Shown in pieces: positions 50,508-62,113 of a stretch of DNA of 64,000 nt. The first letter of the stretch is position 1. Each line of letters starts with the position of its first letter. A program made the translations under genes and the position numbers. Under the pieces are notes generated by a model. That model saw nothing but the letters and a program-made list of their open reading frames with translations, did no database searches and was not told the origin of the DNA. The stretch is from Advenella alkanexedens (GTDB lineage: Bacteria; Pseudomonadota; Gammaproteobacteria; Burkholderiales; Burkholderiaceae_B): NCBI RefSeq assembly GCF_019132845.1, contig NZ_JAHSPR010000006.1:62001-126000 (forward strand), read 5' to 3'.

Positions 50508-50547
50508 AATATTAATCTTAAATACATTGAGCTTCCGCATTCATAAC

Positions 50548-52629
50548 ATGAGTCATACACAAAACTCCAGGCTGTCCGCCTCTTTCAAACTGAACCGTTT
50601 GGCCAGTGCCATTTTGTTGGCAACGGCCGCCACCTCTTCTTACGCACAGGACAACAGCACCATTGATGACATGGCTGCTGTTGAGCTTGAGACCATCTTC
50701 GCCTCTGCCAGCAGTGTTGAAAGCGAAATTCGTGATGCGCCTGCCAGCGTCAGTGTGATTACCCGTAAGGAACTGGACCGTAAACCCACTGCCAGTATTG
50801 CCGAAGTGCTTGGCACGATTCCCGGTGTAACCGGTGGTTTTGCCCCTGCCGGTGCAGGTTCAAAAATCGCTTTTCGCGGCATGCCCGACAAATACACCCT
50901 GATTCTGGTTGACGGCAAACGTATCGGCGGCTCCAACCTGCTTGGACATCGCCCTGACACCATTCCCCAGGACCTTGACTGGCTGTCGCCCGATGCCATT
51001 GACAGAATCGAAGTCGTGCGCGGCGCCATGTCCACCCTGTACGGTTCTGAAGCCATGGGCGGGGTCATTAACATTATTACCCGCAAAATCGATAACGTCT
51101 GGAGCGGTTCACTCACGAACAGCCTGAGCGTGCCCGACTCTGGCAAATCCGGCGACACCAACTCTCACAGCTTTAATATTGGCGGCCCGATTACAGAAAG
51201 CCTGGGCATCCGGCTGGGCGGCAGCTATACCAACCGTGAACCCGATACAGGTCCCCGTGGTTCCAGTGGCTCGGCCAACCAGAACATGAATGCCAAACTC
51301 AACTGGCAACTGAATGAAAATCACAGCTTCTATCTGGATGGCTCCGTAGGGCGCAACAAGGCTGAAGAGTTCCCCGACCTGACGCAACGTGAAGCCCAAG
51401 ACGGCGTTACCAGTGAAATTTTTGGCTCTGACATGCGCCACACCTATTTTGGCATTGGGCACGAAGGCCGTTTCGGTGAAATCCGCACTAAACTGGATCT
51501 GTACGCCAACAGCTATGAGAACAAGGGCGAAGGCGATCAATTGGGCGCAAAATCCAAAGAACATGTTGCCGATTTCAAGGTTGACATGCCCTTTAGCACG
51601 GCTGGCGTGGAACACTGGCTAACCGTAGGTGCCCAATACAAACGGGAAGAAGTTGAAAACCCCAGCAATATTGGCAATATCCTTAGCGTCCTGCTGCCGG
51701 GTGGTGATACCATCACCGCCGATAAACACCCCAAAGGCTGGGCATGGTCACTGTTTGTTGAAGACCAGATTTTCCTGCGGGACGACCTGATCCTGACCTT
51801 GGGGGTACGTGGTGACAAGTCAGACGAATTTGATTTGCATGTCAGCCCGCGCGGATACCTGGTTTATCATCCTACCGAGTCATGGACCATCAAAGGTGGC
51901 GTTTCAAAAGGCTTTCGTGCCCCCAACCTGAAAGAGCGTTCTCTCACCTCTGGCACCTCTTCCATGGGCATGGGTTGTACTTCACTGCGTCCTTTGGGCT
52001 ATACCGGCGGCCAGTGCTACATGATTGGCAATCCAGACCTGAAACCTGAAGTCAGCACCAACTATGAGCTGGGTATTGCTTTTGACCAAGCCGGTTACTC
52101 GTTTGACCTGACCTACTTCCACAGCAAAATCAAAGATATGATCCAAAATGGCTTTCTGGGTAATATCAACGGCACCTGGTACACCCAGCAATTCAATATT
52201 GAAGAAGGAGAAACCGCCGGCCTGGAAGCCTCATTTGGCCTTCCCATTACAGACGGCTTAAGACTGAGCGGCAATGCCACTTACATGATCAAGTCCAAAA
52301 ACAAAACCACCGGTAGCTGGCTGAACATGACACCCAAATGGACCGCCAATGCCCTGCTTGACTGGCAAGCCACAGAAAAACTGTCCACCTATGCATCGGT
52401 ACAGTATATTGGCAAACAACTTTATACCCCACCCGTAGACTATACAGGGAGCAACCATTTTGCCTATGCAAACACCACACTTGATATCGGCGTTAACTAT
52501 GCCGTTAACAAAAACCTGACTTTGCGTGCCGGCATTCAAAACCTGACCAATAATATCGCCAGAACCGATGACGATTACGGTGACGGAAATGGTCGTACCT
52601 ACTACATGGGTGTGACTGCCCGCTTCTAA
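50548..52629 (+). CDS. TonB-dependent outer-membrane siderophore receptor
   Basis: 693 aa from ATG 50548 (a TTG at 50527 is less likely). Signal peptide of about 30 residues ending ATSSYA-QD. A TonB-box-like stretch (MAAVELETIFASAS) precedes the plug (about 55-170; DAPASVSVITRKEL, IDRIEVVRGAMSTLYGSEAM, GGVINIITRK). A 22-stranded barrel follows, with the RAPNLKERSL and NPDLKPEVSTNYELG motifs and a terminal phenylalanine (YMGVTARF). It resembles FepA/CirA/BfrD-type catecholate receptors, but ligand specificity cannot be read from sequence. The Fur box just upstream supports iron uptake. Confidence 0.92.
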   Translation: MSHTQNSRLSASFKLNRLASAILLATAATSSYAQDNSTIDDMAAVELETIFASASSVESEIRDAPASVSVITRKELDRKPTASIAEVLGTIPGVTGGFAPAGAGSKIAFRGMPDKYTLILVDGKRIGGSNLLGHRPDTIPQDLDWLSPDAIDRIEVVRGAMSTLYGSEAMGGVINIITRKIDNVWSGSLTNSLSVPDSGKSGDTNSHSFNIGGPITESLGIRLGGSYTNREPDTGPRGSSGSANQNMNAKLNWQLNENHSFYLDGSVGRNKAEEFPDLTQREAQDGVTSEIFGSDMRHTYFGIGHEGRFGEIRTKLDLYANSYENKGEGDQLGAKSKEHVADFKVDMPFSTAGVEHWLTVGAQYKREEVENPSNIGNILSVLLPGGDTITADKHPKGWAWSLFVEDQIFLRDDLILTLGVRGDKSDEFDLHVSPRGYLVYHPTESWTIKGGVSKGFRAPNLKERSLTSGTSSMGMGCTSLRPLGYTGGQCYMIGNPDLKPEVSTNYELGIAFDQAGYSFDLTYFHSKIKDMIQNGFLGNINGTWYTQQFNIEEGETAGLEASFGLPITDGLRLSGNATYMIKSKNKTTGSWLNMTPKWTANALLDWQATEKLSTYASVQYIGKQLYTPPVDYTGSNHFAYANTTLDIGVNYAVNKNLTLRAGIQNLTNNIARTDDDYGDGNGRTYYMGVTARF

Positions 52630-54787: not shown

Positions 54788-55717
54788 TTAATACCCAGAC
54801 ATAAACACAGCAGGGGCAGACTGCATTTGAGCCCATTGGCGCGGCGACATGCCAAAACGCTGGCTAAAAGCCCTTGATAGAGAAGAAGCGCTGGAAAATT
54901 CCAGCTCCATCGCTATCAGCTTAAGCGGACGCTTGTCCCTGATCATGGTGCACGCCAGCGTCAGCCGCCAATCGGCCAGATAAGCAGCGGGCGTCATACC
55001 AGTCACCTGCCTGAAAGCAGCGGCAAATGCGCTGCGTGACATGGCGGCCGTTTGCGCCATAGACGCCAGTGACCAAGGCTTGCCGGGTGACTGATGCAAG
55101 GCAACCAGTGTTTTTGCCAACCGGGCATCTGCCAACCCCAGAATCAATCCACGGGAAACACCTACTTTATGGGGGTGGTCCAGGATCCAGCGTAACAACT
55201 GGATCAAAACCACCTCAAAAAGACGATTGGCAATCAAGCGGGAACCACAATGCATTTTTTCAGTTTCAGCGAACAGCAAATCAAGGGCAGGCTGTAAACC
55301 GGCCACTTCCCGCAAGGGCACCCAGACTACAGGCGGTAAGGCAGCCACAAACGGATTTCGCTCTCCGCCATCAAAATCCAAAGTGGCGCAAGTGAAATCA
55401 GACCCTTCTTCGGGCGGATTGACAAACACATGAGCCAGGGGCCGCGTATACAGCAGCAAGGACGGCTCATTCAGCGCCAATACGGGCTCCACCCCCTGCA
55501 TGGCAGGATGCCTTACCTGCATGCTTCCCCTGCGCAGGACATGCAGAAACGCTCTCCCGGGTATCGCATCAAACGTATTGGTGCCACACAAGAGACCCGA
55601 ATGGAACAAGCTGGCCTGCACCCTGAAGTGCGCCAGCAATCCCGACAGGCGATCAACAGAAGGCGCTGGGCTCTGATGCTGCAAACTGGACGATAAGTTA
55701 ACTTTTCTGGATTTCAT
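54788..55717 (-). CDS. AraC family transcriptional regulator
   Basis: 309 aa from ATG 55717 (AGGTGGC just before it; the frame extends to 55768). N-terminal cupin-type sensor domain (about 15-185, AraC-binding-like cupin_6 group). The C-terminal DNA-binding domain (about 205-300) has two helix-turn-helix motifs: WSLASMAQTAAMSRSAFAAA and LKLIAMELEFSSASSLSRAF, ending FGMSPRQW. It is divergent from the protoglobin-redoxin pair across an 83-bp spacer, the usual layout for control of the neighbouring operon. Confidence 0.9.
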   Translation of the reverse strand: MKSRKVNLSSSLQHQSPAPSVDRLSGLLAHFRVQASLFHSGLLCGTNTFDAIPGRAFLHVLRRGSMQVRHPAMQGVEPVLALNEPSLLLYTRPLAHVFVNPPEEGSDFTCATLDFDGGERNPFVAALPPVVWVPLREVAGLQPALDLLFAETEKMHCGSRLIANRLFEVVLIQLLRWILDHPHKVGVSRGLILGLADARLAKTLVALHQSPGKPWSLASMAQTAAMSRSAFAAAFRQVTGMTPAAYLADWRLTLACTMIRDKRPLKLIAMELEFSSASSLSRAFSQRFGMSPRQWAQMQSAPAVFMSGY

Positions 55718-55800
55718 GCCACCTATTATCCAGAACAAAGGCGCATCATACAAGCAACCGTGATTCAAACGCCGTATAAATTACACGCCAGGAGACCGTC

Positions 55801-56457
55801 ATGAAACCCTTTCAATTCATTCTGCTTAGTGCCACCGCCGGCATCATTCAGTCATCAACAGCTGCCGCCCAAGAAGCAATTCCCGGTTATGCCTATGGAC
55901 AGCCAACACTTGCCCAGGCCCCCTACACGGCGAGCGATCTGGCAGCACTGCAAAAAACCATGCTTTTTAGCGATGAAGACATTCAGGCATTGCGGCAAAG
56001 CAAAGCGATCCTGGCTGACCAGACCGATGCCATTCTGGATGTCTGGTACGGTTTTGTGGCCTCCACCCCGGAGCTGCTGGTTTATTTCAGTGATGCCAAA
56101 ACCGGACAGGCAGACCCTGCCTATCTGGCCGCCGTGCGCAAGCGTTTTGCCCAATGGATTCTGGATACGGCAGACGCCCGGTTTGACCAGGACTGGCTGA
56201 ACTGGCAATATGAAATCGGCCTGCGCCATACCCACCACAAGAAAAACAAAACCGATGGTGCCAGCAGCGTTCCACAGGTACACTTTAGATATTTGGTTGG
56301 GTTAACCATCCCCATTACCACCACCCTTAAACCATTCCTGGGTAATAAGGGCGCCTCTGCCGAAGAAGTTGAAAAAATGCATGCGGCCTGGGTCAAGGCG
56401 GTTTTATTGCAGGTCATCCTCTGGAGCCAGCCCTACATCAGGGAAGGCGCTTTCTGA
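55801..56457 (+). CDS. Protoglobin-domain protein with N-terminal signal peptide
   Basis: 218 aa. Residues 1-23 (MKPFQFILLSATAGIIQSST, AAA-QE) form a clear cleavable signal. The rest matches the protoglobin family: IPGYAYG, DQTDAILDVWYGFVASTPEL, and the heme-pocket block YEIGLRHTHHKKNKTDG (proximal His candidates about 145-148), VHFRYLVGL. Usual family members start near IPGYAYG and are cytoplasmic. AGGAG lies 6 bases before ATG 55801, so the leader appears to be translated. Likely a periplasmic heme protein binding O2, NO or CO. Followed 13 bp later by a redoxin gene. Confidence 0.85.
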   Translation: MKPFQFILLSATAGIIQSSTAAAQEAIPGYAYGQPTLAQAPYTASDLAALQKTMLFSDEDIQALRQSKAILADQTDAILDVWYGFVASTPELLVYFSDAKTGQADPAYLAAVRKRFAQWILDTADARFDQDWLNWQYEIGLRHTHHKKNKTDGASSVPQVHFRYLVGLTIPITTTLKPFLGNKGASAEEVEKMHAAWVKAVLLQVILWSQPYIREGAF

Positions 56458-56470
56458 ACAGGGCAACGGT

Positions 56471-56953
56471 ATGAACAAAAGTTATTTTCCAATCCAGGAA
56501 TGGCATGTATCGCAGTGGTTCAATACACCGCAACCACTGCAACTGGCCGACCTGCGCGGTCATGTCGTGATGATTCACACCTTCCAGATGCTATGCCCGG
56601 GTTGCGTGCTGCATGCCATTCCACAAGCGGCAAAAGTACACCAGGCCCTGGCTGCCGAAGGCTTGAAAGTGATTGGCCTGCACACGGTTTTTGAACATCA
56701 CGAGGCCATGCAGCCACATGCCCTTGAAGCCTTCATTCACGAATTCCGCCTGCGCTTTCCCATTGGTGTAGATGCCCCCTCTACCCACAACCCGATTCCA
56801 CAAACCATGGCGCAATGGGGCTTGCAAGGCACCCCAAGCCTACTTATCCTGGATAAACAGGGGCATGTCCGGCTAAACCATTTCGGCCAGATTGATGACC
56901 TGGTTTTAGGAGCCACGCTGGGACGCTTGCTGGCCGAGAATATAGAAAACTAA
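56471..56953 (+). CDS. Redoxin/TlpA-like thiol-disulfide protein
   Basis: 160 aa from ATG 56471. Thioredoxin fold with LCPGCVLHAIPQAAK (CxxC, about residue 45), the second half with GTPSLLILDKQGHVRLN (cis-Pro site GTPS). No signal peptide, so apparently cytoplasmic, unlike the upstream protoglobin. AGGGCAACGGT precedes the start. Probably co-transcribed with the protoglobin gene (13 bp gap). Peroxide or disulfide reduction is plausible; not proven. Confidence 0.8.
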   Translation: MNKSYFPIQEWHVSQWFNTPQPLQLADLRGHVVMIHTFQMLCPGCVLHAIPQAAKVHQALAAEGLKVIGLHTVFEHHEAMQPHALEAFIHEFRLRFPIGVDAPSTHNPIPQTMAQWGLQGTPSLLILDKQGHVRLNHFGQIDDLVLGATLGRLLAENIEN

Positions 56954-61153: not shown

Positions 61154-62113
61154 TCAGGGAACAAAAGCGAAACGGGTCAAGTGAAAGAAAACCGGTGCGG
61201 CAAACACAACGGAATCCAGCCTGTCAAGCACCCCCCCATGCCCTGAAATCAGATAACCCCAGTCTTTGGTACCTATACTTCTTTTAATGGCAGACAGGGA
61301 AAGGCCGCCCAGAAAACCGCAGGCCACAATAATGAATGACAGGAACGCGGCCTGCAAGAGGGTGAACGGTGTTATCCACCACAACGCGGTACCGGCCGCA
61401 ATGGCCAAAAACCCGCCTCCCATAAGACCTTCAACGGTTTTTGAAGGGCTGACATTGGGTGCAACTCTGGTTTTACCAAACAGTTTGCCAACAATGTATT
61501 GGAAAATATCACTTAATTGAACCACCAGCAAAAGGTACATTAACAATAGCAGATTTTGCCCCTCATAACCGGGAATCGGCAAAAGCATTAAGGCCGGTGC
61601 ATAGCTTAAGCAATAAACCGTCAGCATCAGCCCCCACTGGATTTTGGCAACACGGGAAATAAAGGCATCGGTGTCACCGGACAAGGCCGTAACGGCCGGC
61701 AACAGCAAAAAACCATAAACGGGTAAACACATCACAAAAAGCCCGTACCAGTCTGCACCAATCAGCCAGTATTGCAGGGGAATGGCAATATAAAAACAGA
61801 TACACAACGCCCAGTGATCACCTTTGCGGGTGGGCGTCAGGGTAATGAACTCACGCAGCGCGAAAAATGACAGCAAGGCATACAGCACCAGGGTGGCCAC
61901 TTTTCCAATAACAAAGCAGCCAACCAGGACAGCAACCATGATCCACCATGCCCTGATCCGGTCATTCAAATTGCGTATGACTTCAGTATTGTTTTTCCGG
62001 GCCAGGTATTGCCCGATACTACTGGCCACGACGAGTAACAAAATAAGCCCAGCCAAAATCCACCAGAATTTAATGGGGGCCTGGGTAATTACGGTTGAAA
62101 TGAAACTGTCCAA
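61154..62113 (-). CDS. Phosphatidate cytidylyltransferase-like protein (CdsA family)
   Basis: 319 aa from TTG 62113, which has AGGAG 9 bases upstream. Seven or eight membrane helices. It would make CDP-diacylglycerol from phosphatidate and CTP. The family signature is visible near the C-terminus: SAIKRSIGTKDWGYLISGHGG and VLDRLDSVVFAAPVFFH, plus VSPSKTVEGLMGG. It ends the cassette of CDP-alcohol phosphatidyltransferase, acyltransferase and this gene, and so is probably a second, specialised CdsA beside the housekeeping copy elsewhere. Start codon and context are sure; lipid product is not. Confidence 0.9.
   Translation of the reverse strand: MDSFISTVITQAPIKFWWILAGLILLLVVASSIGQYLARKNNTEVIRNLNDRIRAWWIMVAVLVGCFVIGKVATLVLYALLSFFALREFITLTPTRKGDHWALCICFYIAIPLQYWLIGADWYGLFVMCLPVYGFLLLPAVTALSGDTDAFISRVAKIQWGLMLTVYCLSYAPALMLLPIPGYEGQNLLLLMYLLLVVQLSDIFQYIVGKLFGKTRVAPNVSPSKTVEGLMGGGFLAIAAGTALWWITPFTLLQAAFLSFIIVACGFLGGLSLSAIKRSIGTKDWGYLISGHGGVLDRLDSVVFAAPVFFHLTRFAFVP

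Follow-up and report, generated by a model that had tools for sequence, protein, structure and literature searches.

What does a protoglobin with an apparent export signal do between a regulator of the AraC type and a thioredoxin-like enzyme? The question is raised by a locus of Advenella alkanexedens (assembly GCF_019132845.1, contig NZ_JAHSPR010000006.1), which lies in a window of 64,000 nucleotides covering positions 62,001 to 126,000 of the forward strand; "the window" means this whole stretch, and its own numbering is used below. A gene for a single-domain protoglobin with a leader (55801-56457, + strand, 218 aa; PF11563) is followed after 13 bp by one for a TlpA/ResA-like redoxin without leader (56471-56953, +, 160 aa; Pfam AhpC-TSA/Redoxin), and is divergent, across 83 bp, from a gene for an AraC-type regulator with a Cupin_6 and a helix-turn-helix (HTH) domain, HTH_18 (54788-55717, -, 309 aa; PF12852, 120 bits). 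A preliminary description of the locus, whose coordinates and distances were confirmed on re-reading the sequence, had proposed an exported protoglobin that possibly forms part of a heme-based redox- or nitric oxide (NO)-sensing unit. The reading put forward here, to which we assign slightly less than an even chance, is that of an oxidant-induced operon, in which a thiol-sensing AraC regulator would drive the expression of an exported heme detoxifier together with cytosolic thiol enzymes.

The globin matches PF11563 with 109.5 bits (cut-off 25, E 2e-31), and from residue 25 to its end it is homologous to the whole chain of MaPgb, the protoglobin of Methanosarcina acetivorans (PDB 2veb, residues 4-195; E 9.7e-65; 53% identity), which, together with ApPgb of Aeropyrum (7ute), is its closest known relative. 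The pocket residues of MaPgb, i.e., Trp60 (B9), Tyr61 (B10), Phe93 (E11) and the proximal His120 (F8), correspond to Trp82, Tyr83, Phe116 and His143 in the window and are identical in 82/82 aligned rows (81 locus rows, two of them from one place, plus MaPgb, and without loci L078 and L081). In MaPgb, positions B9, B10 and E11 have roles in ligand binding and gating (PMC3680402). The proximal histidine (codon at 56227-56229, +), on whose conservation the preliminary description had staked its case, is thus kept throughout the alignment. Differences from MaPgb concern Phe145, which is Leu in the window and in 76/82 rows, and position E20, which is Cys in wild-type MaPgb and Ser in the crystallised mutant, but Ala in the window and in 77/82 rows; the window protoglobin contains no cysteine at all. 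The N-terminal extension of MaPgb is present as well, residue 25 aligning with MaPgb residue 4, so that the leader is additional to it. Globin-coupled sensors are also covered by PF11563, but the window protoglobin differs from them in having a leader and no signalling domain.

Relatives were collected by scanning GTDB genomes with an alignment of four protoglobins, and the best 80 of 481 relatives plus the window make up the 81 loci of the following tallies, a sample that is biased toward window-like sequences. L003 is the same place as L047, and L001 and L002 are the window; each was counted once in trees and tallies, the L003 duplicate remaining in the 34-row AraC count and in the 82-row pocket count. 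L078 and L081 were re-read in frame with Met placed first, and the start of L046, first placed at an upstream ATG, was shifted by hand.

The N-terminus of the window protoglobin (MKPFQFILLSATAGIIQSSTAAA followed by QEAIPGY) displays a Lys in its n-region, a hydrophobic core and an AxA site, as judged by a fixed rule (charge, hydrophobic core and AxA) that is our own and not SignalP. Residues 1-24 (MKPFQFILLSATAGIIQSSTAAA plus Q) are extra compared to MaPgb, and the predicted cleavage between AAA and QEA would remove a Sec-type signal peptide of residues 1-23 (55801-55869, +) and leave a full-length globin. The ATG of the long form is the only in-frame ATG, GTG or TTG before IPGY, and a ribosome site, AGGAG (Shine-Dalgarno, SD 5; 55790-55794, +), lies 6 nt 5' of it. 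Leaders recur in 64/81 protoglobins, their starts having been chosen on the basis of ribosome sites, and leader-bearing forms span Proteobacteria, Planctomycetota and Bacteroidota. The leader rule is positive in 60/64 leader-labelled protoglobins vs. 0/18 leaderless ones (17 of the 81 plus L004), and in 3/34 picked open reading frames of the window, the protoglobin among the three; ribosome sites at the long start are found in most rows outside Bacteroidota. In a quick tree with many open forks, a clade of 59 rows (approximate likelihood-ratio support, SH-aLRT, 97) includes 57 with a leader, L010 and L064 being the exceptions, after L017 was relabelled as leader-bearing since the start chooser had picked an upstream ATG; the leader label changes nine times on the tree, counted before this correction. 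The label is unsure for L084 and L089, in which a second ATG near IPGY and ribosome-like sites are found. Leaderless forms occur in Nitrosomonas, Mesorhizobium, several deep rows, L108 and the archaeal MaPgb, in which respect the latter differs from the window protoglobin. The presence of a protoglobin in three Mesorhizobium species in the GTDB scan contrasts with the relevant passage of PMC4648194, according to which none was found in the rhizobial genomes searched there. In the Bacteroidota loci L060, L061 and L066, protoglobin genes stand in tandem pairs; in L060, only the second of the two carries a leader, so that cytosolic and exported copies may coexist in one cell.

The preliminary description had argued for the long form from the lack of an internal Met near IPGYAYG and from the ribosome site, and both observations hold. 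Its prediction of export gains support from the leader rule and from the leaders of the relatives, homologues of the same subgroup being mostly leader-bearing rather than uniformly leaderless. In contrast, its premise of a normally leaderless, cytoplasmic family applies, as judged from the predicted N-termini, to archaeal and some bacterial protoglobins and not to this branch. Accordingly, the word "unusual" is only half appropriate: leaders are common in the genomes, but a search of the literature, judged mostly by title and abstract and for open-licence papers only, showed no paper that treats an exported protoglobin or this cassette.

The genes around the protoglobin recur as well. Neighbours in the relatives were located by tblastn and hidden Markov model (HMM) searches, which yielded an AraC-type gene in 33/81 loci, divergent and less than 200 bp away in all 33. 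A redoxin relative lies near the protoglobin in 39/81 loci, namely in 23 of the 33 AraC loci, nine Nitrotoga-type loci, L024, L052, three Mesorhizobium loci and, with weak scores, two Cytophagales loci. The survey of homologues proposed in the preliminary description thus reveals a recurrent unit. An AhpD-like gene is found in 22/81 loci (12 AraC loci, the nine Nitrotoga-type loci and L052); it is absent from the window, and one CMD-family gene is encoded elsewhere in the window's genome. The window redoxin scores above both Pfam cut-offs (33.6 and 29.2 bits) and carries the CxxC motif CPGC (read in the sequence, 56594-56605, +), readable relatives having CPGC or CPAC. Its closest solved relatives, SPOA0173 (PDB 3eyt; E 1.8e-53) and 3lor (E 1.1e-48), are thioredoxin-like proteins of unknown role that share its FQMLCPGC block. 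As the preliminary description had noted, it has no signal peptide, and the same is true, by eye, of 33/33 other readable cassette redoxins (three broken Mesorhizobium rows excluded), which suggests that protoglobin and redoxin probably reside in different compartments. A strong redoxin relative (E <1e-50) is found in only 17/101 related genomes, and its placement beside the globin is therefore not a matter of chance; since redoxin and globin also occur together in distant phyla and with two kinds of regulator, a shared task is likely.

Several loci deserve mention in their own right. In Mesorhizobium (L082, L086, L088), the redoxin that follows the leaderless protoglobin is in two pieces near CPGC, by decay or frameshift. 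On a plasmid of Hymenobacter volaticus (L107), the protoglobin is accompanied, according to the annotation, by catalase, a hexameric tyrosine-coordinated heme protein, DUF2024 and MarR. On the Agarilytica plasmid pSU1 (L104), the neighbours of a leader-bearing protoglobin are an HTH gene, divergent from it, and yghU, the latter annotated as a glutathione-dependent disulfide-bond oxidoreductase.

In the AraC regulator, Cys44, Cys110 and Cys157 are invariant in 34/34 cassette AraC proteins, which include one duplicate pair, and in 27/27 sequences of a second alignment; the predicted structure (mean predicted local distance difference test, pLDDT, 86.8) consists of strands followed by helices, as in a cupin plus HTH protein. 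Aligned with RclR of E. coli, a hypochlorite sensor that is activated via oxidation of Cys21 and Cys89 (PMC7464077), the window AraC is 27% identical over the aligned part, and its Cys110 falls on Cys89. The RclR of P. aeruginosa switches on the adjacent AhpD-like gene rclX upon exposure to hypochlorous acid (HOCl) and hypothiocyanous acid (HOSCN) (PMC7950407). E. coli RclR with rclABC and P. aeruginosa RclR with rclX are likewise cases of a cysteine-bearing AraC-type regulator beside a redox operon, and the AhpD-like gene in 12/33 AraC cassettes recalls the target in P. aeruginosa, a likeness drawn from the published description. Unlike in both systems, the first target gene here is a globin.

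A candidate operator emerges from the upstream regions. The direct repeat TGGAY-N16-TGGAY occurs in 19/33 AraC-linked upstream regions (150 bp each; the stretch for L046 was taken from the wrong start), as opposed to 0.04 on average and at most 1 over 300 rounds of dinucleotide shuffling, and other periods from 13 to 35 yield 0 or 1 occurrences. In AraC proteins, a 21-bp period would set the two HTH sites on the same face of the helix. The copy in the window, TGGAC-N16-TGGAT (55687-55712, +), lies inside AraC codons 2-11, which raised the possibility that the repeat merely reflects AraC coding sequence. However, the 19 repeats are distributed over all three frames relative to AraC (12, 6 and 1), and with respect to the chosen AraC start six lie outside (e.g., L032, L047), one overlaps and 12 lie inside, those of L048 and L055 only by virtue of a doubtful upstream start. 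Coding alone is therefore no explanation, and the repeat is a candidate binding site of the AraC regulator.

A second type of regulator accompanies the protoglobin in many loci where AraC does not. A MarR-type regulator is found in 36/81 loci, at less than 700 bp in 28 and farther away, within about 3 kb, in eight. Together with the AraC of 33/81 loci, this means that two unrelated families supply cysteine-bearing regulators to the protoglobin loci. The C-terminal part of the MarR-type protein keeps a C-x2-C pair and two further cysteines in 36/37 collected sequences, the odd one being a fragment; the set was collected with an HMM, all five seeds of which carry the four-Cys motif. Examples are the regulators of L033 (5161-5835, +), L057 (5204-5893, +), L051 (5245-5916, +), L060 (7548-8174, +) and L082 (5344-5925, -), and four-Cys MarR regulators adjoin protoglobins in several phyla. 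An AlphaFold model has a pLDDT of 90.1, with block means of 90 to 97 for residues 161-219. Structure matches cover mainly residues 11-155 and barely reach the cysteine part, and no counterpart of this part was found among the matches listed, the best 60 of 127 sequence matches ending by profile position 151. The four-Cys module is a possible zinc or iron-sulfur redox switch. In L100, whose genome gave no globin match, a four-Cys MarR gene faces a redoxin gene.

Taken as an oxidant-induced operon, the locus would work as follows. The cytoplasmic AraC regulator, a distant relative of RclR, would sense a thiol-reactive oxidant via its conserved cysteines and, once oxidised, bind the TGGAY repeat and activate the operon of protoglobin and redoxin that diverges from its own gene. 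The protoglobin would be exported by Sec, load heme b in the periplasm and intercept reactive species at its open heme iron, candidate substrates being peroxynitrite, peroxide, hypohalous acids and NO. In the cytosol, the redoxin, joined in relatives by the AhpD-like protein, would handle the same stress by repairing or reducing thiols. The best leads to a substrate come, by analogy, from MaPgb, which in vitro isomerises peroxynitrite and reduces nitrite (PMC4020757). The wider proposal, that a broad periplasmic branch of protoglobins in several phyla comprises exported heme detoxifiers under the control of either RclR-like AraC or four-Cys MarR regulators, is more tentative and should be considered somewhat less probable than not.

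Several observations weigh against this reading. The closest NCBIfam model of the AraC regulator is indeed RclR (NF040475), but the window protein is not filed as such because its 85 bits fall short of the cut-off of 400, and RclR Cys21 lies three residues off Cys44 in the alignment. The idea that the three cysteines are peculiar to cassettes with a globin had to be dropped: a congener without protoglobin encodes a Cupin_6-type AraC protein (L110, 1489-2310, -), 46% identical to that of the window, which keeps all three and is divergent from an Ohr-like gene (named by eye). The cysteines therefore mark the AraC subfamily and not the cassette; as far as one case shows, this suggests that the AraC group stands beside thiol-oxidant or peroxide genes elsewhere, too. 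The HMMs behind the neighbour tallies were built from these same loci. Neither AraC nor MarR was found in 12/81 loci, eight of them leaderless (one of the 12, L056, has only 157 bp of upstream DNA), and the redoxin is missing from 10/33 AraC loci, four of which have less than 2.4 kb of downstream DNA. Moreover, a multi-turnover reaction of the ferrous globin would need a reductant, and none is encoded at the locus.

The congeners add a further point of this kind. A protoglobin match was found in 3/101 genomes, the window's own included, and in 0/9 congeners, two of which, G002 and G005, hold redoxins with 85% and 84% identity to that of the window. In G002, methyltransferase, AAA gene and redoxin follow each other in the order of the window, by eye, and neither AraC nor globin lies between them. 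The redoxin, standing directly after the AAA gene, therefore has a life apart from the globin, and the AraC-globin pair is an extra unit in the window's genome, which suggests either a gain there or a loss in the congener. A joint arrival of redoxin and globin is unsupported.

Among the other explanations, the one that fares best is a role in nitrogen-oxide metabolism, whereby a periplasmic globin would act on NO, nitrite or peroxynitrite from denitrification or nitrification and AraC would answer nitrosative stress. The in vitro activities of MaPgb fit this explanation, as does the leader-bearing form in the nitrite oxidiser Nitrotoga. For the ammonia oxidiser Nitrosococcus oceani, PMC3772326 lists an energy-induced protoglobin, Noc1089, whose number adjoins that of nitrosocyanin (Noc1090); NsrR and a nitric oxide reductase appear in the same table. 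A NirK above the family cut-off is encoded in the window's genome; NirS was not found in it, the only genome searched for NirS, nor was a globin of PF00042, and therefore it has no flavohemoglobin by that model. However, NirK presence does not follow the protoglobin: it is above cut-off in 2/31 genomes with an AraC-linked protoglobin (of unstated completeness and including the window's own) vs. 22/200 in the order. The 31 stem from 32 AraC loci, with L049 omitted as part of the same metagenome-assembled genome as L045. Likewise, no nirK or nirS was noticed beside the cassettes, though most flanking genes lacked annotation. A link to NO or denitrification via NirK was thus rejected, the NO sensing of the preliminary description is not indicated by this survey, and the nitrogen-oxide explanation as a whole appears unlikely.

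Direct sensing by the heme, as proposed in the preliminary description, is considerably less probable. The exported globin would bind O2, NO or CO and signal to AraC or via the redoxin, and it is true that protoglobins are part of the sensor-globin cluster (PMC4020757) and that the distal site of MaPgb is reshaped upon ligand binding (PMC3680402). However, the globin is a single domain without an output or membrane part, and the redoxin is leaderless. If the globin is exported, the inner membrane separates it from AraC, and direct action on the cytoplasmic regulator is therefore precluded. AraC, with its own cupin domain, three invariant cysteines and distant kinship to RclR, would be the more natural sensor. 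The heme-based sensing unit is therefore unsupported, in contrast to the redox context that the description had also recognised, to which redoxin, AhpD-like and AraC neighbours lend support.

It is similarly improbable that the leader is non-functional and the protoglobin is a cytoplasmic globin with an extended N-terminus. The hydrophobic core in the window is modest (8-residue mean 2.12), and L010, 73% identical to the window protoglobin, does without a leader. A count of changes by codon position points neither way: all three positions vary in leader DNA but chiefly the third in mature DNA, a pattern that fits a signal peptide and also untranslated DNA, and one of the four groups has its leaders out of register owing to an indel. 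On the other hand, the combination of Lys, core and AxA recurs almost throughout the leader-labelled proteins and in none of the leaderless ones, and ribosome sites mark the long start in most of the rows outside Bacteroidota.

A TonB-dependent receptor is encoded at 50527-52629, two genes before AraC and 2.2 kb before its end; among NCBIfam models, the receptor best matches those of siderophore and heme receptors, without reaching the cut-off of any. This proximity might point to a globin that stores or transfers heme, O2 or CO in the periplasm, with redox neighbours for heme and thiol homeostasis, but that is a poor prospect, given that the receptor is two genes away, the neighbour tallies of other loci did not cover it, and the heme of MaPgb is buried by loops and the N-terminal extension (PMC3680402) and therefore ill suited to be handed over.

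If the oxidant-induced operon is real, its implications reach beyond Advenella. The biological role of MaPgb, the best-studied protoglobin, was "still unknown" in 2013 (PMC3680402), and a branch of periplasmic detoxifiers would provide a physiological function for the single-domain protoglobins. A recurrent, probably exported and oxidant-linked protoglobin with fixed partners offers such a role in testable form. The exported form would place a globin outside the cytoplasm and tie it to thiol-based regulators of the hypochlorite-responsive type, and the many relatives with the same set-up suggest an overlooked group of exported globins, which maybe serve against reactive oxidants.

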